A stretch of 64,000 nucleotides of DNA. It comes from Muribaculaceae bacterium (GTDB lineage Bacteria > Bacteroidota > Bacteroidia > Bacteroidales > Muribaculaceae). The position numbers and the translations under genes are program-made. Below, piece by piece: positions 14,223-54,126 of the stretch. The first letter of the stretch is position 1, and the number at the start of each line of letters is the position of its first letter. The stretch covers positions 1-64,000 of the forward strand of contig JAGAJP010000063.1 in NCBI GenBank assembly GCA_017626045.1, given 5' to 3'. The notes beneath the pieces were generated by a model, which worked only from the letters and a program-made list of their open reading frames with translations, ran no database searches and was not told the DNA's origin.

Positions 14223-17200
14223 TTAAAACTCGATATTGAATCCCACAGTCCAAGTGCGAGCCTGGGGGTATACTCCGAAGTCAATGCCGTTTGACCTGTC
14301 GGAACCCGAAGATATTTCGGGGTCATATCCGTGATACTTTGTCCACGTGGCGAGGTTTTCGACTGCCACATAGGCACGGAATTTCTGGACTCCGATTTTC
14401 TTGGTGATGTCGGCGGGCACCGTGTAGCCGAGCTGCATGTTCTTGAGCCTGCAGTAACTTCCGTCATAGACGTAGAGGTCCGAACTCTGCCAGTTGTAGC
14501 CGTCGCCAATCACGAAGCGCGGTATTCTGTCGGAAGTTCCCTCACCGGTCCATCGGTCGAGCATCCACGACGGGAGATTGACCGAACGGGCATCTACACG
14601 TCTTGTGGCATCGAATATGTCGTTGCCGGCAACTCCCTGGAAGAATATATTGAAGTCAAATCCCTTCCAGGCGAGATTCAGAGAGGCGCCATAGGTCCAG
14701 TCCGGAGTACCGTTGCCGATATTCGTGCGGTCGTCTTCATTGATGGATCCATTACCGTCGGTGTCTACGAAACGAACGTCGCCGGGTACGAGAGAGGTTC
14801 CGTATTTCGTGTTGTATTCATTAGCCTCCGCCATGTTCTGTATGATGCCGTCGGTCTTGTAACCGTAGAAATACGGGAAAGGCAGGCCATTCTGCGCCCT
14901 GAGGATAGTGCCTACGCCCTGGAAGCTGTCGAGGTTTGCCCAGCCCTGTTCATTACCGTAGGCTATAAGTTTGTTTTTGAGATACGACAGGTTTGCGGAG
15001 ACTCCAACGGTGAGCTGATTGAAGAATTCATGACGGAAGCCGAGATCAAACTCAAGGCCCCAGTTCTGCATCTTGCCCACGTTGCCCACAGGAATCGACT
15101 CACCCACATACTGCGGAAGCGACATGGTCATAAGCATTCCGTTTGTTTTCTTAAGGAACCAGTCGGCGGAGAAAGTCAGCGTATTGCTGAGGAAGCCGAA
15201 ATCAAGACCCACGTCATAAGACTCTGATTCTTCCCAGCGGAGGTCGGGATTGGCGAGCTGCGATGGCTTGGTGCCGATGGTTATAGAACCGGGATTGCCG
15301 AAGATGGCGTTGTTGTTGGTGCTTGTAAGCGCCACATACTGGAAATTGCCGATGTTCTCATTACCATTCTTACCCCAAGACGCACGCAGTTTCATGTTGT
15401 TGAGCCAGTTGGCGGAGGACTCCATGAAATGCTCGTTCATAATGTTCCATCCTGCCGACACTGACGGGAATGTAGCCCAGTGGTTGTTGGCACCGAATCG
15501 GCTTGAGCCGTCCCGGCGAACAGTCGCCTGAATCATATAACGGGAATCGTAGTCGTAGCTGACTCGGGCGAAATAGGAAGCGAGTTTGGACTTCACCTGC
15601 GGCGCGCCCCATACAGTCATGTCGCCATTGGCTGCAAGACCGGTACAGCCGTCGATCCATGGGCGGTCATAGTTGATGATGTTGTTGCGCGATCCGCCGA
15701 GATACTGGCCGCTGCTTTCCTTAGCCGACTGACCGAGGAGGACGCTGAAGGAGTGTGCACCTATTGTCTTGTCGTAGGACAGTATATTCTCAATCTGCCA
15801 TACGAGACCGCGCTCGCTTGTGGATGTAGCCGATGAATGGCTCGATGATCCACCGTCGCGAAGATAATAGAGGGGAGTGTAGCCGTCATATCCCCAGAAT
15901 GAGAGGTCGGCACCGTAGCTGATGCGGTAGTGGAGATTGTCCCAGATCTGGAGGTCGCCGCTGAAATTGCCCACAAACTTATGGCTCCAGTTCTTGTTGC
16001 CCGGAAGCATGAGGTTTGCGATGGGGTTGCTCATCTCCTGGAAGTTGCCGAAAGCAGTCGGCACCATCACGAGGCGTCCGTCGTCACCATACATAGGCAC
16101 ATAGTCGGGCTGATTCGAGAGATAGCTTAACTGCGCGGCCTCTTCGGCGCTCCCCTTTTCAAGATATGGCGTCAGGATCGGAGACATAGCGAGAGCAGAG
16201 CCGAGCGGCGAACCCCATGTGGAGTTTGCCTCGATACCATGGCTCTTGATACGGGTGTATGCAAGGTTTGTCTGAATTGTAGCCTTGTTGAGCCATGAGC
16301 GCTTGCTCGATTGGTCGAACAGTGTGATTCCGAGATTCGAGCGAAGCGTGAGGCGGTTGTAGTCCGAACGGTTGAAATTGCCTCCGACAATACCGTCCTG
16401 GTCATAATAGCCGAGAGAAAGCATGTATTTGACAGCCTCTGAGCCGCCGCTTACCGCCACCTGATGGTTCATTACCGGTGCATTGTCGTTGAAGACCTCT
16501 TCCTGCCAGTCGGTGCCTTCGCCATACGAAGCCGGATCGGCATACAGAGGAGCGACACCGGAATTCAGATAGCCTTCGTTAATCATCATTGCATACTCAC
16601 TTGCGTTGAGCACGCTACGCTTCTTTGCCACGCTCTGCCAGCCGTAGCTGAAGCCGTATGTGACTTTGGCTCGTCCTGTCTGTCCCTGCCTTGTCGTGAC
16701 GAGCACTACACCATTGGCGGCACGCGCGCCATACACTGCTCCTGAGGCAGCGTCCTTGAGCACCTCTATCGATACGATGTCGGCGGGATTCAGATAATCG
16801 AGACCTCCCTCAATAGGCATACCGTCAACTATATATAGAGGATCCGAATTGTTGATTGTGCCGATACCGCGGATACGCACTCTTGCAGCAGCGCCGGGCT
16901 GTCCGGAAGAGGAAGTGACCGTGACACCTGATGCAAGACCCTTAAGGGCATTGTCTACCCTCACAGGAGCCGTCATCTCAAGATCGTCGGAACTGATGCT
17001 TGAAATCGCTGCAGTGACAACGCTTTTCTTCTGCGTGCCATATCCGATCACCACCAGGTCGTCGAGCATATCGGCGCTCTCCTTAAGCACAATCTTCATC
17101 GAAGACTCTGCCTTCGCGTCTTTGACTTCATATCCGACGGCGCTGAACCGCAGGATGGAATTGTCAGGAACCGTTATTTTGAAATTTCCGTCAATATCGG

Positions 17201-17366
17201 TAGCGGTTCCTTTAAGAGTTGATTTCTCCAGGACAGACGCGCCGATGATCGGTTCGCCTGCAGTGTCGGTCACAGTGCCTCTGACATCTATGTCGGCATA
17301 AGAAGAACCAATGCCGAGCATCGCAGCAGTCAGGGCGGTCAGATACCTTGCTTTGAACTTTTTCAT
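14223..17366 (-). CDS. susC: SusC/RagA-family TonB-linked outer-membrane transporter
   Basis: The 1047-residue protein has a signal peptide (ending SSYA near residue 24), a carboxypeptidase-regulatory-like domain (about 26-105), a TonB-box-like segment DDLVVIGYGTQKK near residue 100-115, a plug (about 115-235, with LKGLASGVTV, DPLYIVDGMPIEGG and IEVLKDAASGAVYGARAANG) and a C-terminal barrel ending VGFNIEF. Length and order are those of the SusC family, which imports oligosaccharides across the outer membrane using TonB energy with SusD as lid. The frame is intact. It starts a transcription unit: a terminator ends the upstream regulator gene, and a -7 box with an adjacent palindrome lies 50-77 bases upstream. 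The likely substrate, from the neighbouring GH16 and GH3 enzymes, is a beta-1,3-glucan oligosaccharide. Confidence 0.95.
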   Translation of the reverse strand: MKKFKARYLTALTAAMLGIGSSYADIDVRGTVTDTAGEPIIGASVLEKSTLKGTATDIDGNFKITVPDNSILRFSAVGYEVKDAKAESSMKIVLKESADMLDDLVVIGYGTQKKSVVTAAISSISSDDLEMTAPVRVDNALKGLASGVTVTSSSGQPGAAARVRIRGIGTINNSDPLYIVDGMPIEGGLDYLNPADIVSIEVLKDAASGAVYGARAANGVVLVTTRQGQTGRAKVTYGFSYGWQSVAKKRSVLNASEYAMMINEGYLNSGVAPLYADPASYGEGTDWQEEVFNDNAPVMNHQVAVSGGSEAVKYMLSLGYYDQDGIVGGNFNRSDYNRLTLRSNLGITLFDQSSKRSWLNKATIQTNLAYTRIKSHGIEANSTWGSPLGSALAMSPILTPYLEKGSAEEAAQLSYLSNQPDYVPMYGDDGRLVMVPTAFGNFQEMSNPIANLMLPGNKNWSHKFVGNFSGDLQIWDNLHYRISYGADLSFWGYDGYTPLYYLRDGGSSSHSSATSTSERGLVWQIENILSYDKTIGAHSFSVLLGQSAKESSGQYLGGSRNNIINYDRPWIDGCTGLAANGDMTVWGAPQVKSKLASYFARVSYDYDSRYMIQATVRRDGSSRFGANNHWATFPSVSAGWNIMNEHFMESSANWLNNMKLRASWGKNGNENIGNFQYVALTSTNNNAIFGNPGSITIGTKPSQLANPDLRWEESESYDVGLDFGFLSNTLTFSADWFLKKTNGMLMTMSLPQYVGESIPVGNVGKMQNWGLEFDLGFRHEFFNQLTVGVSANLSYLKNKLIAYGNEQGWANLDSFQGVGTILRAQNGLPFPYFYGYKTDGIIQNMAEANEYNTKYGTSLVPGDVRFVDTDGNGSINEDDRTNIGNGTPDWTYGASLNLAWKGFDFNIFFQGVAGNDIFDATRRVDARSVNLPSWMLDRWTGEGTSDRIPRFVIGDGYNWQSSDLYVYDGSYCRLKNMQLGYTVPADITKKIGVQKFRAYVAVENLATWTKYHGYDPEISSGSDRSNGIDFGVYPQARTWTVGFNIEF

Positions 17367-17415
17367 GAGTTATAATTTAGGTTAAGTATTTTTAATTGCC
17401 TATAACTGTTTTTTG

Positions 17416-17443
17416 CAAAATTACTGCTAATTTGAACCGGTTC
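17416..17443 (-). promoter_or_regulatory. susC promoter region with palindromic operator candidate
   Basis: On the minus strand 17423-17416 reads TAATTTTG, a full match to the -7 consensus TAnnTTTG. No TTTG is found 19-21 bases further upstream, as expected for a promoter that needs an activator. A perfect 10-base palindrome, GAACCGGTTC, occupies 17434-17443, in the spacer. Its sequence resembles operators of LacI-type regulators. Confidence 0.5.
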
Positions 17444-17474
17444 GGTAGGATGTAAGGATATTGGTAAGGCAAAG

Positions 17475-17507
17475 CAAAAAGCATTACCTTGACAATCAAG
17501 ACAATGC
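17475..17507 (-). terminator. Terminator after the regulator gene
   Basis: On the minus strand GCATTGTCTTGA pairs with TCAAGGTAATGC around a TTG loop, with one internal GT/GT mismatch pair, and TTTTT follows at 17480-17476. This would end the lacZ-regulator transcript before susC. Confidence 0.6.
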
Positions 17508-17559
17508 CTTTTATTCTGAATCAATATAGGTAAATTGCGAATACTGCTGAAGAGTTCCT

Positions 17560-19350
17560 TCAGCCATCGATTTTGCCTAGTTTTGCGACAGCTTCGGCGA
17601 AATGTTCGCGTCCTGCAGCCGCCTTGTTGCGTGTGCGCTGGCGTGTGTTGTATACAGTCTGGACCGAGCAATGCAGGAACTTCGCGATCTTGACGCTGTC
17701 GTTGAGTCCGAGCCTCACGAGGGCATATATGCGTAGCTCAGTGGTCAGTTTTTTCGGATTCCGTAGCTTTATGTGCTCCTCCGGACGCAGAAGTGTATTG
17801 AAGTCGTCCACGAAATGGGGATATATTTTGAGGAATATCTCATCGAAAGTCTCATATAGCTCCCTGATTTCATCATAGGAAAGTTCGGGCGACTTCACTA
17901 TGTCTATCACCTTGTCAAATTTTTTGTCGACGAGGAGCCGATGGATGTTGAGGCGGAATTCATCCATCTTGTTGATATAGTTGCTGCAGATTGCAAACAT
18001 ATCGGCTATATGCCTCTCCTTCTCTTCATTGACCTCGGCGAGTTCCCTCGCGCTGGCACGCGCCTTCTGATACATCTCATGGAGCTTTTCATTCGCCTCA
18101 TTGAGCTGTACGCGTATACCGGAGAGCTCCTGAACCTTTTCGTTAAGTTCACTGTTTGCCTCGTTTAGCGTTGCCCTGGACTGCTTAAGCAGTCTGTTCT
18201 GACGCATGATATAGAATATCGACGCGTTGATGATCACGATTATCACTATGAGAAGCACCAGATAGATATGATTGATACGTATCTGCCGCTCGCTTCTTTC
18301 CTGGATGCCCTGCAGGATATCTTTCTGCAGACGTGCCAGATTTCCCGTGCGCACACGGCTCTTGTATTCATTGGCACATGCAATGCAGAAGTTCACGTAT
18401 TGGTTTGCGTGGTCAAGGTCGTCGAGTTGATATAATATCCTCGCCGCCTCTTCAAGCGAGGCTATCTCCTTGTTGCATGCCCGTATGTCGGCCATCGCCG
18501 ACACAAGCAGAAATTTGAGGTAATTCTGTCTGTCGCCCGTGAGTTCATAGAGCTTTGCGAGCACCCACGACATCATGGCGAAGTCTCGGGTGCAGTTGTC
18601 GGAGGACTCCACATTCTTTTTGAGCAGAGGAATAGCCTCAGAAGCCTTTTTACGGTTATTGAGGCTGCTCCAGCCGGTGAGCCAGTAGTAGCCGGAGTCT
18701 TCCCGCTTCAGATCCTTGGTCATCACGTGCAGGATGCTGTCTGCCATCTGAGAATACATTCCCATTTCATATTCGACTCCCATGTAAAGGTCCTGATGAG
18801 TGGAAAGGAACAGCATTCGGTCGCAGTATTTAAGTGCGAGTTCGGGAGAAAGAGACGCGGGATCGATGGAATCGATGACGGCGGAAGCCTTCTCAAGGAA
18901 CCCTGTCGCCGAGAGAAGATAAACCTTATTGAGCTTCATCTCTGACTCAAGATCCGACCGTCCGAGGCTCTGCGCCGTGGCAAGAGCCTCGTCGGCGTAT
19001 TTCATGGCAAGGTCGGAGTCATAGGCGCTATATTCATCATAGAGCGACGACTGCAGCCAATAGCGCTGCTCCATGTTTCCGGTTGCGTCAAGTTTCCGGA
19101 GATAACTGTCTATACGACCTTCCTTTTCCTTGATTATTTCCGGGAACTTCAGCAAAAGCGAGTCCACATCCGCAAGCATCTTCCTAATCTCGGGCGTAAG
19201 TCGCGCCGGTATCTCCCGGTTCTGTGCATCTATCTGAAATGTCGTGTTAATCACGACACACAACAGACCTATAACGACCGCTATATGCCGTACAGGGAGC
19301 GGCAGACGAACCGCCGCTCCCCATATCGTATGGAAAAATGAAGGTTTCAT
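17560..19350 (-). CDS. Membrane-spanning DUF6377/SusR-like regulator
   Basis: The 596-residue protein has an N-terminal membrane anchor (about 21-41, IAVVIGLLCVVI), a periplasmic helical region rich in TPR-like repeats (about 42-360), a second membrane segment (about 365-390, IYLVLLIVIIVIINASIF), a cytoplasmic coiled coil (about 392-450) and a C-terminal domain with a helix-turn-helix-like stretch (NDSVKIAKFLHCSVQTVYNTR, near 555-575). This order matches the DUF6377 family, found next to susCD genes, and resembles the SusR idea of a one-protein sensor that binds oligosaccharide outside and DNA inside. No histidine kinase or receiver domain is present, so it is not a hybrid two-component system. 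It follows the lacZ-type gene by 13 bases and precedes susC, which it probably activates. Sugar specificity is unknown. Confidence 0.8.
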   Translation of the reverse strand: MKPSFFHTIWGAAVRLPLPVRHIAVVIGLLCVVINTTFQIDAQNREIPARLTPEIRKMLADVDSLLLKFPEIIKEKEGRIDSYLRKLDATGNMEQRYWLQSSLYDEYSAYDSDLAMKYADEALATAQSLGRSDLESEMKLNKVYLLSATGFLEKASAVIDSIDPASLSPELALKYCDRMLFLSTHQDLYMGVEYEMGMYSQMADSILHVMTKDLKREDSGYYWLTGWSSLNNRKKASEAIPLLKKNVESSDNCTRDFAMMSWVLAKLYELTGDRQNYLKFLLVSAMADIRACNKEIASLEEAARILYQLDDLDHANQYVNFCIACANEYKSRVRTGNLARLQKDILQGIQERSERQIRINHIYLVLLIVIIVIINASIFYIMRQNRLLKQSRATLNEANSELNEKVQELSGIRVQLNEANEKLHEMYQKARASARELAEVNEEKERHIADMFAICSNYINKMDEFRLNIHRLLVDKKFDKVIDIVKSPELSYDEIRELYETFDEIFLKIYPHFVDDFNTLLRPEEHIKLRNPKKLTTELRIYALVRLGLNDSVKIAKFLHCSVQTVYNTRQRTRNKAAAGREHFAEAVAKLGKIDG

Positions 19351-23074: not shown

Positions 23075-23160
23075 CAATGCATAATGCATAATTCATAATG
23101 CATAATTAAATGCCGACACTTAATCTAATTCATAATGCATAATTCATAATTGAATGCCGA
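23075..23160. repeat. Left heptamer repeat block
   Basis: GCATAAT/TCATAAT heptamers fill 23075-23107 and again 23126-23150. The two blocks form a roughly 44-base tandem repeat, each ending in AATGCCGA (23109-23116 and 23153-23160). Confidence 0.8.
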
Positions 23161-23230
23161 TCCTTTATTCAATGCAATATTTATAATGCGTAATGCAAAA
23201 TTAAAAGTTTATATTAATAATATTTATTTA

Positions 23231-23620
23231 CTAACCACCATATCTGTTGTTTGATAATGCATTTTTACAGAAGGTTGTTTTAACGATAGATGTCAATAGC
23301 TTAATTAATTCCCTGCAATCAATTATCATTGAATTAAAACTGGGATTGTCGATATAGCCGGATTCAAATAGGATTTCAAGCCAATATTCAGACTCGCTTG
23401 CCTCTTTCAAAGCTATATTCATTTTTGCACCGAAGTCAGCTTTTGACTGACCTCTGATAGCCTCCTTAACATTTGCACCAATACTTGTACCACTTCTAAG
23501 AAGTTGTTTGGATAAATCATATTCATGACGCTCTTACCTCAAATACTTACGCAGTTTAATGGTTCTTATGGCAAATGCCTTAGATTTTAAGACTATGACA
23601 TTACTCTCATTACCCTTCAT
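23231..23620 (-). pseudogene. Four-helix-bundle (S23/TIGR02436-type) protein with in-frame stop
   Basis: Read from ATG at 23620, the frame encodes 129 residues of a four-helix-bundle protein of the kind first seen in 23S rRNA intervening sequences: NVIVLKSKAFAIRTIKLRKYLR, then a TAA (23536-23534), then ERHEYDLSKQLLRSGTSIGAN, VKEAIRGQSKADFGAKMNIAL and KEASESEYWLEILFESGYID, to the end NNRYGG. Apart from that single stop the frame is continuous and family hallmarks are well kept, so the inactivation looks recent. Restart at the internal ATG (23422) would leave only 63 residues. The family is related to the Avd accessory protein of diversity-generating retroelements, but no reverse transcriptase is near. 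It is flanked by inverted heptamer repeats. Confidence 0.85.
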
Positions 23621-23703
23621 AATTCAATGCAACGCACAATGTATAATTTTTACTACTTATTACACCCTATTATAGCCACAAAATACTGATTCACAATAGC
23701 AAT

Positions 23704-23736
23704 AATTATGCATTATGCATTATGAATTATGCATTG
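23704..23736. repeat. Right heptamer repeat block overlapping the pyrH end
   Basis: The block is the inverted counterpart of 23075-23107. It supplies the pyrH stop codon (23729-23727) and its last two codons (Asn-Ala). Confidence 0.8.
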
Positions 23737-48750: not shown

Positions 48751-50070
48751 ATGAGCAAAGACAAATACATAGCTGCCATAGAAATCAGCAGTTCGAAGGT
48801 GATCGGTGCCGTGGGAATATCCGGCAAAAGCGGTCAGCTTGAGATAATTGCCGCTGAACAGGAGAAATCCACCGACACCGTGCGGTATGGGCAGATACAG
48901 AATACAGAAGAGACCTTCAACCTTACCAACTACGTACTGGAGCGGCTGGAAAGGCGCCCCAACGTGTCGCCGCGCGAAATCACCGGAGTATATATCGGAC
49001 TCTCCGGAAGGTCGCTGCGCAGCATCCCCATCGACGTGAGCCTCAGCCTCCCGGACGACACGGAGATTTCCGAGTCGATAGTGGAAAGGCTGCGCTCAAA
49101 CGCCCTCGCCGCCGACATCGACAACTCTCTGGAGATAATCGACGCGGTGCCGCGAGTGTTCAAGGTAGGGAAAACCGAGACACACCGCCCCATCGGCATG
49201 ATGGGAAACAGCATCTTCGCCACCTACGACCTGATAGTGGCGCGCCCGGCGATTCAGGCAAATCTGAAACGTGTGATCAAAGACAAGCTCGGACTTGAGA
49301 TCATGGGCATCGTGGTGACCCCGCTCGCCACCGGATATGTCGCCCTGAGCGAGCAGGAGAAGAAACTCGGATGCATGCTCGTGGACCTCGGCGCAGAGAC
49401 CACCACCGTCACCATCTACACGAAAGGAAACATGGTCTACTTCGCCACCCTTCCGTTGGGAGGTAGAAACATCACGCGCGACCTCACCACTCTCAACGAA
49501 CTTGAGGAGAAAGCCGAGGAATACAAGCAGAATTTCGGCAACGCCATAGCACCCGCCACGCCGTCGCAGGTAAAGGTGGGGCGCCACAAGCAGTCCGACA
49601 TCAGCAACATCGTGGTGGCGCGCTCCGAAGAAATCGTGGCAAACATAGTGGAGCAGATACAATACGCCGGACTCTCGGAAAGCGACCTTCCCGAAGGCAT
49701 AGTGCTGTGTGGCGGCGGAGCCCGCCTCAATGGCATGATGGAACTGATAGGGAAATACAGCGGACTTAAGGTGCGCATGGCGGGGCTCCCTCCGTTCATA
49801 CGCATGAACGACACGATGGGACAGGGCATGGACTCGCTCCAGGTTGCCGCCATAATGTATGCCGGCGCAGAGAAATGCGACGAGGAGTGCCTCGCGCTGC
49901 CGGTGAAGCAGGAGGAAATGCCGGAAACCGAGACCGCGGCAGTCGTGGAGCAGGCGGCAGCCGTGCAGCCGAAGACAAGAAAGAATTCATTCTTCAGCTC
50001 TATCGGCAATAAACTGAGCCGTATGTTCACCCCCATCGACGACGATGACGACGGCGAAGAACTGAATTGA
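48751..50070 (+). CDS. ftsA: Cell-division protein FtsA
   Basis: The 439-residue actin-like ATPase has the phosphate loops (IEISSSKVIGAVG; VDLGAETTTVTIYTKG) and adenosine motif (GIVLCGGGARLNGM), and the SHS2 1C domain between them. FtsA anchors FtsZ to the membrane through a C-terminal amphipathic helix; here the end reads FFSSIGNKLSRMFTP followed by a short acidic tail, which fits. It starts 8 bases after ftsQ and precedes ftsZ by 16. Confidence 0.95.
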   Translation: MSKDKYIAAIEISSSKVIGAVGISGKSGQLEIIAAEQEKSTDTVRYGQIQNTEETFNLTNYVLERLERRPNVSPREITGVYIGLSGRSLRSIPIDVSLSLPDDTEISESIVERLRSNALAADIDNSLEIIDAVPRVFKVGKTETHRPIGMMGNSIFATYDLIVARPAIQANLKRVIKDKLGLEIMGIVVTPLATGYVALSEQEKKLGCMLVDLGAETTTVTIYTKGNMVYFATLPLGGRNITRDLTTLNELEEKAEEYKQNFGNAIAPATPSQVKVGRHKQSDISNIVVARSEEIVANIVEQIQYAGLSESDLPEGIVLCGGGARLNGMMELIGKYSGLKVRMAGLPPFIRMNDTMGQGMDSLQVAAIMYAGAEKCDEECLALPVKQEEMPETETAAVVEQAAAVQPKTRKNSFFSSIGNKLSRMFTPIDDDDDGEELN

Positions 50071-50086
50071 AAAGCCACTCATAACT

Positions 50087-51463
50087 ATGGAAGAAAATTA
50101 CAACGACATAACCAATACGGCTGAATTCACCGACAACCGTCCCAAGTCTATCATCAAAGTGATCGGAGTAGGCGGCGGCGGTGACAATGCCGTGAACTAT
50201 ATGTTCCGGCAAAACATACCGTATGTAAACTTCGTGGTGTGCAATACCGATGAGCAGGCGCTCAACATGTCGCCGGTGCCCAACAAACTGGTGCTCGGCT
50301 GGGATGTGACCCACGGCCGCGGAGCCGGCAACGACCCGGCGGTGGGCCGGCAATGTGCCGAGGCTTCCGCCGACGAGATACGCAACCTTTTCGACGACAG
50401 CACCGAGATGGTGTTCATCACCGCCGGAATGGGCGGAGGCACCGGAACAGGCGCGGCACCCGTAGTGGCGAGGATTGCCAAGGAAGAGGGGAAACTGACC
50501 ATCGGCATCGTCACGGTGCCATTCCTCTTCGAAGGTAAAAAGAAAATCCTCAAGGCTTTCGAAGGCGCGAAGGAGATGCAGAAAAACGTCGACGCCCTTC
50601 TGGTGATCAACAACGAGAACCTTATCGAGATATATCCGGACTACGATTTCTTCAACGCGTTTGAGAAAGCCGACGACACTCTCGCCAACGCCGCGAGGTC
50701 AATCTCGGAAATCATCAGCGAGGAGTGCTACATCAATGTGGACTTCGAGGATGTGAAGACCACCCTCAAGGGGTCCGGGACCGCGATTATCTCCACCGCA
50801 TACGGCGAGGGCGAGAACCGCATCTCGAGCGCCATTCGCAATGCCATACACTCGCCTCTGCTCCGGCAGCACGACATCAACACCTCACAGCGCCTTCTGC
50901 TGAAGTTCTCCTGCAGCCGCACGAGCAGCCGTCCGATAACCGCCGCGGAAATGACCGAGATATACAACTTCACCTCACAGCTCTCGGACTCCATCGACGT
51001 GAAGTGGGGCATAGCCGACAATCCGGATCTCGGCGACAAACTGAAGGTGACGATACTCGCCTCGGGATTCAACCTGACTCTGGTCGACGGCAACAAGACC
51101 TCGAAAGAGGGTCAGGAGAAAGACGACAATATAGTGATATTCGGAGGAGAGCATGAGAACCCGGAAGTAGTCGCCGCTCAGGCAAAGGCCGTCGACGACG
51201 AGATTGTCAAGATGTATGGCGCCGAGAAACTGAAGCAGCAGATGCGCGACGCCAACAAGGCGAAGTATGCCGTGCTCGAGCCGTCCCAGTTCGACAACCA
51301 TGAGGTGGCGGCGCTCCTCGAAAGGACACCCGCCTATAACCGTCCCGCAGACTTTCTGGAAGAACTGCGTAAGACCACTGACGGCAAAGACTCCCGCATG
51401 ACTCAGAAACCTAATGCCAAAGACACCTCCTCTTCTTCTACCAATGTAATTAATTTCGGCTGA
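50087..51463 (+). CDS. ftsZ: Cell-division GTPase FtsZ
   Basis: The 458-residue tubulin homologue has [13 protein letters not shown] at the start, the GTP-binding signature GGGTGTG (116-122), [11 protein letters not shown] and the T7-loop region [15 protein letters not shown]. It polymerises at the division site as the scaffold of the divisome. The last 80 residues are variable and polar, as in Bacteroidetes. It is the final gene of the dcw cluster here; an RNA methyltransferase gene follows after 7 bases and may be read through. Confidence 0.97.
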
Positions 51464-51470
51464 AATACGA

Positions 51471-53123
51471 ATGGAAAATAAATTTACTATGGTCGCCAAG
51501 ACCTTCCAGGGCCTGGAGGATGTGTTGTGCGACGAACTTGTGGCCCTCGGGGCTGAAAACGTGGAGACCGGCAAGCGCATGGTGCAGTTTGAGGGAGACC
51601 TCGCCATGATGTATAAGGCAAACCTGTGCTGCCGCACGGCTCTGAGGATTCTCAAACCCATCGTGAAGTTCACTGCCTCAAACCCCGACGACCTTTACGA
51701 TGCCGTAAGGGAAATAGAATGGGAGAAATACATGACGGCAGACTCCACCTTCTCCATCGACTCCACCGTTAGCAGCGCGGACTTCACCCATTCCAAATTT
51801 GTGACCTACCGCGTGAAAGACGGCATAGTGGACCATTTCAACGACATTTGCGGACGCCGCCCCTCGATAAGGCTGCAGGGCGCAGACATCCAGCTTAATG
51901 TGCATATATCGGAAGACCGGGTGACGATATCGCTCGACTCCAGCGGCGAACCGCTCTCGAAACGCGGCTATAAGGTGGAGAACACTGAGGCGCCAATCAA
52001 CGAGGTGCTTGCCGCCGGAATAATACTGAAGACCGGCTGGCGCGGCGAATGCGACTTCGCCGACCCGATGTGCGGATCAGGCACATTCCTTACGGAGGCT
52101 GCCCTGATTGCCGCAAATATCAATCCGGGCATATACAGAGAGCATTTCGCTTTCGAGACATGGGACAATTTCGACCGCGACCTCTTTGAGGAAATATACA
52201 ATGACGACAGCGGTGAAAGAGACTTCGCATATAAGATCTACGGAGGCGACATCGACCCCGAGGCAGTGAAGATAGCACGCAAGAACGTCAGGAGCGCCAA
52301 GGTGGAGAATATGGTGGAGATTTCATGCAAAAGCATAGAGGACTGGACCGACAACGCTCCCGAGGGTGTTCTCGTGACCAATCCGCCTTACGGACAGCGC
52401 ATCAATCCCTCCAATATGACGGCGCAGATTCTCTACAAGACCATCGGCTCATGCCTTAAGAAAAACTTCGAGGGATGGCATGCATGGATAATAGGACTTG
52501 AGGAGGGCAACATGCAGGACATTGGTCTCAAGCCGTCGGTGAAGTATCCTCTTCTCAACGGCTCGCTGGAATGCACCCTCAACGAGTATGTGATGTTTAG
52601 CGGTAACTACAACGACTTCCGCGCCGACGGGGGAGTAGTGAAACACGCGTCTCCTAAAGACGAGCAGCCGAAAGTGCGCCGAATGTCAGACCGAGAATGG
52701 GAGGATGACGCCCGCAGATTTGACGGCAAAAGCCGCAAGAAAGACAACACCCGCAAAGACTTCTCAAAAGGTGGCAAGTCCGGCCGCTTCGACAGCGACG
52801 ACCGCAAGCCGAGACGTTTCGGCGACGACGACCGCAAGCCGAGACGTTTCGGCGACGACGACCGCAAGCCGAGACGCTTCGACAATGACCGTAAACCAAA
52901 ACGCTTCGGCGACGATGACCGCAAGCCGAGACGCTTCGACGACGACCGCAAGCCCAAACGTTTCGGTGATGATGACCGCAAGCCAAGGCGCTTCGGCGAC
53001 GAACCGCGAAAAATATCCGACAAAGGACCGAGACTTACCCAGTATGAGGAAACACGCGCACCGGGCAAGATGCGCTCACGCCGCAACAACGGCAGGGACT
53101 TCCGCAACGATGACGAAGACTGA
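51471..53123 (+). CDS. THUMP-domain rRNA methyltransferase (RlmL-type) with repetitive tail
   Basis: The 550-residue protein has an N-terminal THUMP domain (about 50-165) and an UPF0020 class I methyltransferase domain with [17 protein letters not shown], the SAM motif [12 protein letters not shown] and the catalytic NPPYGQRI motif. It thus resembles the N-terminal half of E. coli RlmL (m2G2445 of 23S rRNA). Residues after about 400 are an unusual, highly charged tail: [16 protein letters not shown], seven [10 protein letters not shown]-type repeats (443-510), then [18 protein letters not shown]. Such a tail suits RNA or ribosome binding. It starts 7 bases after ftsZ. Exact target nucleotide is not proven. 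Confidence 0.9.
52797..53000 (+). repeat. Tandem 27-30 base coding repeats in the methyltransferase tail
   Basis: Seven units of [10 protein letters not shown], with D, K and F/D variants, alternate between 10 and 9 residues and total 68. The first two 30-base units are identical at the DNA level, and a third shares 20 or more bases, so expansion by slippage or unequal exchange is recent. Confidence 0.92.
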
Positions 53124-53145
53124 CCTGAAAGAAGACTGACCTGAA

Positions 53146-54126
53146 ATGAGCAACTACCGCACTGCCGGCCCCGCATCCATCATAACAGGCGCTGTCGCGG
53201 CTGTCGCCATGATTGCCGCCACAGCGCTCCTGCTGCCCAATCTCGCGCCGGAAGGCAACTATGGAATATGCCTTCCGTCGCCCAACCAGTGGGTGATACC
53301 ATACGCCGAGGTCCCGATTAATGCCGTTCTGATACTGATTGCCGTCACCGCCGCATTTTTCATCAACCGGAGATATTCGTTTGTAAAAGGCACCGAAGGC
53401 ATTCTCCCGACATCTCTGGCAGTGCTTCTTGCATCGAATCCTGTCAACACGTCATATCTCGGCATACCGGTCATAATGCTTATCGTCAACCTCGTATGCC
53501 TTGACATCATGATGAAGGCGTACCGTTCGCCCAACGCCACGACGCAAATGTTTGCCGTGGCGACCTATCTCTCACTCGGGTCGATGATACAGTATGCCTT
53601 CCTGCCCATGATGCTCGTGTATCCCGTAATAGCCCTAATGGCAAAGGTGCTTCGACCTAAGGAAACCATAGCATACGTAATGGGTCTGCTGGCGCCATAC
53701 TGGGTGCTTCTCGGTTTCGGGATCATCTCCCCTCAAGACTTCCGGATGCCTCAGTTTCTCGCCATAATGCCTCAATACGGCACAGGGTTCATGCTCTTCA
53801 TATTCATCTCGCTGGGCACATTGGCGCTGACATGCCTGATGATGTCGCTCAACAACGTAATGCTGATATATTCAGGCAACATACGGGAAAGGACTTTCAA
53901 CAACATGATCACGCTGCTCGGACTGGCGTGCCTTGCATGCATGCTTGCGGACTTTGACAATTTCCAGGCTTATTCCACGACTTTCTGCTTCACGGCGGCG
54001 GTACAGATTTCCAATTTCTTCGCCATGCGCCGCATACCCCGGAGCCATATATGGTTCTGGTCGCTTATGTCGCTCTTTATCGTATTCTATATTCTTATGG
54101 TCGTGGACGCCACGATTGCAAAATAA
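53146..54126 (+). CDS. Polytopic membrane protein of unknown function
   Basis: The 326-residue protein has about nine or ten hydrophobic segments (for example IITGAVAAVAMIAATALLL, INAVLILIAVTAAFFI and MIVNLVCLDIMM-like stretches) with short polar loops. It resembles the uncharacterised DUF6427-type membrane proteins of Bacteroidetes, but I cannot assign it firmly. It lies between the RNA methyltransferase and pdxB with 22- and 11-base gaps, so it is probably in the same operon. No transporter or enzyme motif is visible. Confidence 0.75.
   Translation: MSNYRTAGPASIITGAVAAVAMIAATALLLPNLAPEGNYGICLPSPNQWVIPYAEVPINAVLILIAVTAAFFINRRYSFVKGTEGILPTSLAVLLASNPVNTSYLGIPVIMLIVNLVCLDIMMKAYRSPNATTQMFAVATYLSLGSMIQYAFLPMMLVYPVIALMAKVLRPKETIAYVMGLLAPYWVLLGFGIISPQDFRMPQFLAIMPQYGTGFMLFIFISLGTLALTCLMMSLNNVMLIYSGNIRERTFNNMITLLGLACLACMLADFDNFQAYSTTFCFTAAVQISNFFAMRRIPRSHIWFWSLMSLFIVFYILMVVDATIAK

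Follow-up and report, generated by a model that had tools for sequence, protein, structure and literature searches.

The window analysed here, the first 64,000 nucleotides of contig JAGAJP010000063.1 from a Muribaculaceae bacterium (GCA_017626045.1), carries a gene for a THUMP-domain RNA methyltransferase that directly follows an ftsZ-like gene and ends in a long, highly charged tail containing a tandem array of short peptide units (Table 1). A match to the window FtsZ is found upstream of the methyltransferase in all same-genus loci tested.

Table 1. Features of the methyltransferase locus (window coordinates)
Feature	Position	Strand	Basis or remark
ftsA-like gene	48751-50070		precedes the ftsZ-like gene
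ftsZ-like gene	50087..51463	+	genomic context; 7-base gap to the methyltransferase gene
RlmL/YpsC-type THUMP-domain class I RNA methyltransferase gene, 550 aa	51471..53123	+	Pfam; solved relatives
Enzyme core, conserved, residues 1-385	51471..52625	+	mean column identity 0.82 (32 relatives)
Proximal tail motif SDxEW, conserved, residues 400-417	52668..52721	+	identity 0.61 (32 relatives)
Array of seven 9-10 residue units (D/G)xDDRKP(R/K)RF, residues 441-508	52791..52994	+	Tandem Repeats Finder (TRF), shuffles, codon test
Two identical 30-base units	52797..52856	+	exact self-match
Distal motif GPxL...MRSRK, conserved, residues 519-538	53025..53084	+	identity 0.60 (32 relatives)

The initial annotation recognised a THUMP rRNA methyltransferase in this gene, an identity upheld by its Pfam domains and by its structural relatives. 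Residues 6-370 contain the RlmL ferredoxin-like, THUMP and RMKL-like methyltransferase domains in the same order as in RlmL (RlmL_1st, THUMP and UPF0020; PF22020, PF02926 and PF01170 with 64.6, 70.5 and 144.9 bits, each above its cut-off), which is the domain content of the COG0116 RlmL/YpsC type, and an NPPY motif is present in the methyltransferase. The best solved relatives are the Escherichia coli RlmL structures 3v97/3v8v (E 3.5e-58, residues 7-374), and the stand-alone proteins 3ldu, 3k0b and 3ldg are also among the nearest. The fused RlmK domain is missing: the match to the NCBIfam RlmK/L model stops at position 386 of 704 and scores 340 bits, below the cut-off of 466, which sets the protein apart from the bifunctional RlmKL enzymes. 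Homology suggests that the window enzyme would methylate G2445 of the 23S rRNA. The core ends close to the point, at about 390 residues, where many tail-less homologues end. At the other end of the gene, an exact 16-base tandem duplication (GAAGACTGACCTGAAA, 53115-53146) spans the stop codon. The window also holds tandem repeats outside the methyltransferase gene, namely a 32-base repeat at 1749-1867 (TCACATTTTATGGACATACTTTGTGGAGATTC, 3.7 copies, 98% matches) and two clusters of AT-rich 7-base repeats (AATGCAT / ATTATGC) at 23076-23735.

The tail extends over approximately 52626-53120, and a count over 169 residues gives 36 R, 21 K, 35 D and 7 E. The feature initially delimited at 52797-53000 thus captured the array, which we place at 52791-52994, and understated the extent of the tail as a whole. 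The description of the tail as strongly charged and spaced by phenylalanine holds well: of the 51 open reading frames in the window that reach 200 aa or more, this one ranks highest in charged fraction (0.72; next 0.50) and lowest in 60-residue entropy (2.44 bits; next 3.28). Such a composition predicts an intrinsically disordered region. An AlphaFold2 model built from 13 aligned sequences (the window protein and 12 relatives) is uninformative even for the core, with a mean pLDDT of 33 and a pTM of 0.19.

The array consists of five units of 10 residues and two of 9, in agreement with the initial count of seven units, of which the first two had been reported as identical in DNA. In the original register these are units 1 (52797-52826) and 2 (52827-52856), and both identical 30-mers lie within an exact self-match of 51 bases at an offset of 30. 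Tandem Repeats Finder calls the array with periods of 30, 57 and 87 (scores 205-270), and the best self-match of the tail reaches 0.90 against 0.29 in shuffled sequences (z 20.8; 0 of 300 shuffles). Where different units have the same residue, the codon is also the same 69% of the time, whereas the codon usage of the window predicts 42% (none of 5000 simulations reaches this value). Synonymous codons therefore agree beyond what protein similarity requires, which indicates that the units arose by duplication of DNA, as the initial annotation had proposed in describing the repeats as expanding.

Differences that have since accumulated between the units are mostly silent, 56 synonymous against 16 non-synonymous. 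The resulting pN/pS of 0.073, calculated over the last 8 codons for 21 non-independent unit pairs registered by unit boundaries, shows that the peptide is kept between the window units. Estimates from other species depend on the register: pooled pN/pS is 0.17 when the register is chosen by protein similarity, a choice biased low, and 0.44 over 15 species when it is chosen by third-position identity, which allows mis-registered units. Because of the latter value, purifying selection on the units is clear in the window and not equally so in all species.

We rejected the possibility that the minus strand is coding here (ORF 52607-53176, 189 aa), since other frames too stay open across a repeat with a 27-30 base unit; openness by frame across the array is erratic among relatives, and the 189-codon antisense frame is a by-product of a repeat period divisible by three. 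When the array was used to search the genome, it matched only its own antisense strand and no second copy appeared, although this was a loose first look that missed the similar tail of polynucleotide phosphorylase (PNPase) described below, and further tails of looser grammar are possible.

Comparison across 32 relatives divides the tail into blocks of very different conservation. The two motif blocks have mean identities of 0.60-0.61, while the array and the stretch preceding it reach 0.33-0.35. Within the proximal block the SDxEW pattern occupies residues 406-410, and W410 is retained in 97% of the relatives; in the distal block P520, R535 and R537 are invariant. In the seven closest sequences, the conservation of the blocks flanking the array almost equals that of the enzyme itself. 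A profile of the distal motif matches this gene alone in the genome (E 2.5e-16). The 32 complete same-genus tails range in length from 116 to 267 aa, with charged fractions of 0.42-0.66, an aromatic content of 0.052-0.117 and a net charge of +0.052 to +0.148, whereas the enzyme cores are net negative (-0.062 to -0.007).

Within the genus the gene is found in 31 of the 36 other genomes, the five without a match being 70-89% complete, and the tail is present in every relative whose tail was read. Significant tandem periodicity, reached by none of 300 shuffles, is displayed by 29 of the 37 same-genus tails tested, some of them cut by contig ends, and the units differ by lineage: DDRKDFRR (L017), DDRPSRSNF (L018), KFDKGDR (L009), KFDKGDRKFNSDGR and GGDRRFNDDRRQ all occur, while the closest clade carries a KPRRFNDD-like unit in varying number. 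The remaining 8 tails, three of them cut by contig ends, have no significant array, which implies that repetition itself is not essential. Array 15-mers recur within a genome far more often than they are shared between species (0.31 vs 0.03 in L001, 0.57 vs 0.09 in L017, 0.48 vs 0.02 in L018). Tail length changes even between close relatives, from 196 to 188 residues between species with 98.7% identical cores (L034 and L036) and from 215 to 175 between species with 96.1% identical cores (L002 and L032). All these comparisons of repeat number are between species, each represented by a single genome, and they agree with the anticipated variation in the number of units and show that the kind of unit varies as well. 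Tail chemistry is kept while the unit, its period and its sequence turn over from species to species. The flanking motifs and the arrays of differing units across the genus go beyond what had been noted initially.

Beyond the genus the picture changes. Among 295 Bacteroidales genomes, tails also occur in families outside Muribaculaceae, mostly without arrays; of 25 tails from outside the genus, a total that includes four sequences from other genera of the same family, 5 show a periodicity that no shuffle reached. Many Bacteroidales homologues have open frames of only about 380-440 residues and hence little or no tail, which implies that the tail is not needed for the basic reaction. The initial annotation had made absence of the tail from other genomes a reason to doubt its biological meaning: such absence is common among the more distant Bacteroidales, and within the genus it is not seen in any relative read. 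On a tree of 54 cores the presence of the tail needs three changes, and a single origin may be compatible with this tree, in which only four tail-less sequences are included and which therefore says little on the age of the tail.

What could be the role of an array whose unit is replaced from lineage to lineage within a tail that persists? We consider it somewhat more probable than all other readings together that the array is the variable middle of a disordered, arginine-rich mixed-charge C-terminal tail that tethers the enzyme to RNA and is rebuilt by repeat duplication. Clusters of R and K would bind pre-rRNA or nascent ribosomes through weak multivalent contacts, D residues might limit over-binding by the tail, and F and Y residues could serve as stickers. 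A ribosomal protein, another RNA enzyme or the enzyme itself would be contacted specifically by the conserved end motifs; the array between them would bind RNA and act as a spacer, with its exact sequence of little weight. Repeat duplication would lengthen and rebuild the tail under selection on its composition.

Another possibility for the nature of the array is that it represents a largely neutral product of replication slippage in a tolerant tail whose function does not exceed that of a solubility linker. The fast turnover of units and periods between species would be expected under such a process, as would members without arrays and the existence of tail-less homologues. Neutrality is difficult to reconcile with the pN/pS between the window units, with the narrow limits on charge and aromatic content that persist although the unit is replaced, and with the conservation of both end motifs in the 32 relatives, so that we regard this explanation as unlikely, if a serious contender. 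The conservation of the end motifs, with their invariant or nearly invariant residues and a distal profile unique to this gene in the genome, could instead mean that the tail is mainly a protein-docking arm in which SDxEW and GPxL...MRSRK bind a partner or fold back, the array being a mere spacer. A pure spacer, however, need not keep high charge or regularly spaced aromatics, tail length varies more than twofold, and the partner is hypothetical, which makes this an improbable account. That repeat number is an artefact of collapsed or expanded short-read contigs is very hard to believe: although arrays of this gene do break short-read assemblies, as seen from the related metagenome-assembled contigs that end inside the tail (4 of 13; L039, L041, L042 and L043) or carry a run of N there (L035), the window array is just 204 bases long with many synonymous differences between its units, lies within a 76-kb contig with both flanks aligning with relatives, and has counterparts in many independent assemblies.

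Several other RNA-associated proteins of the same genome carry low-complexity tails of charged or polar character, in keeping with the tethering reading; these were picked as candidates and do not derive from an unbiased proteome scan. The PNPase ends in GERPRRDGDRPRRDGDRGPRGPRRDGGNDRGPRGPRRD, and its tail, GERPRRDGDRPRRDGDRGPRGPRRD, has a grammar similar to that of the methyltransferase tail; the gene (L097, G000:C27, approximately 16827-18182) encodes PRRDGDR/RGPRGPRRD repeats, and a related RRxG...RGPRRF tail is found on the PNPase of a relative (G008, L075). An RluB-like pseudouridine synthase (L093, region G000:C64:17874-18272) has an N-terminal tail of about 200 residues in which Y, Q, N, R and G are abundant and GGYQQRPRQNGYNR-like repeats occur. 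Low-complexity sequence is also found at the N terminus of Rho, as a long region, and at the C termini of two DEAD-box helicases, as basic tails (the loci of these three proteins are L094 in G000:C59, L077 in G000:C50 and L078 in G000:C64). One might speculate that, in these Bacteroidales, an RNA-associated compartment or pre-ribosome hub gathers the RlmL-type enzyme, PNPase, the RluB-like protein, Rho and the helicases through tails whose physical grammar, rather than sequence, is inherited through tandem duplication, forming a bacterial convergent counterpart of eukaryotic eIF3a and arginine-rich mixed-charge domains (R-MCDs); we hold this broader scenario to be doubtful.

Disordered tails on RNA enzymes are already known. 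The present case offers a natural series in which one enzyme, across dozens of related species, bears the same tail chemistry with a different repeat between conserved motif bounds. Such a series lets one test directly in bacteria whether a disordered region owes its function to composition rather than to sequence, and it also bears on how such tails grow. It further hints that rRNA modification may be spatially organised in Bacteroidales.

How does this tail relate to systems described previously? E. coli RlmL shares the domain order and the NPPY motif, whereas the window protein lacks the C-terminal RlmK domain and has the repeat-bearing charged tail instead. A search of the open-access literature on RlmL/THUMP proteins in Bacteroides and on disordered extensions of 23S rRNA methyltransferases found no paper. 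The resemblance to RGG tails suggested initially does not stand: the tail contains no RGG triplet, its unit being made of D, R, K, P and F, and we therefore rejected the RGG/RG-rich class in favour of an arginine-rich mixed-charge repeat that is closest in sequence to eIF3a. Among sequences of solved structures, the array is matched best by the human eIF3a repeat DDDRGPRRG (E 1e-16 with the tail as query), which shares a period near 10, a D-D-R-x-P-R-R skeleton and a host factor that works on ribosomes; eIF3a differs in having G or other residues where the window tail has F, and in its many more units. Common descent was rejected because the low-complexity stretch alone matches, with no other eIF3a domain, and the likeness is one of low-complexity convergence.

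Disordered regions are also described on other bacterial RNA proteins. The C-terminal noncatalytic region of RNase E is described as mostly disordered with microdomains (PMC4435900), and in this respect resembles the predicted disordered tail of the window protein, albeit on a different enzyme. The disordered region of Rho in Bacteroides thetaiotaomicron drives RNA-dependent condensation via short charged motifs in a ppGpp-responsive manner (PMC13269538). As a charged region that is disordered and carries short conserved motifs, on an RNA enzyme from within the Bacteroidales, it provides a precedent for the proposed tail; it has KE-rich and prion-like subdomains and no sequence relationship to the window tail, and the word 'repeat' is absent from the main text of that paper (PMC13269538). 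The nearest described class is that of the eukaryotic arginine-rich mixed-charge domains of nuclear speckle proteins, in which R and D are interspersed at high charge in an RNA-related host protein (PMC9324279, PMC12629991). The window tail has the corresponding sequence character, a low-complexity stretch where R lies among acidic and further basic residues, and differs from these domains in being bacterial, in its regular F/Y and P residues and in its clustered KPRR blocks.
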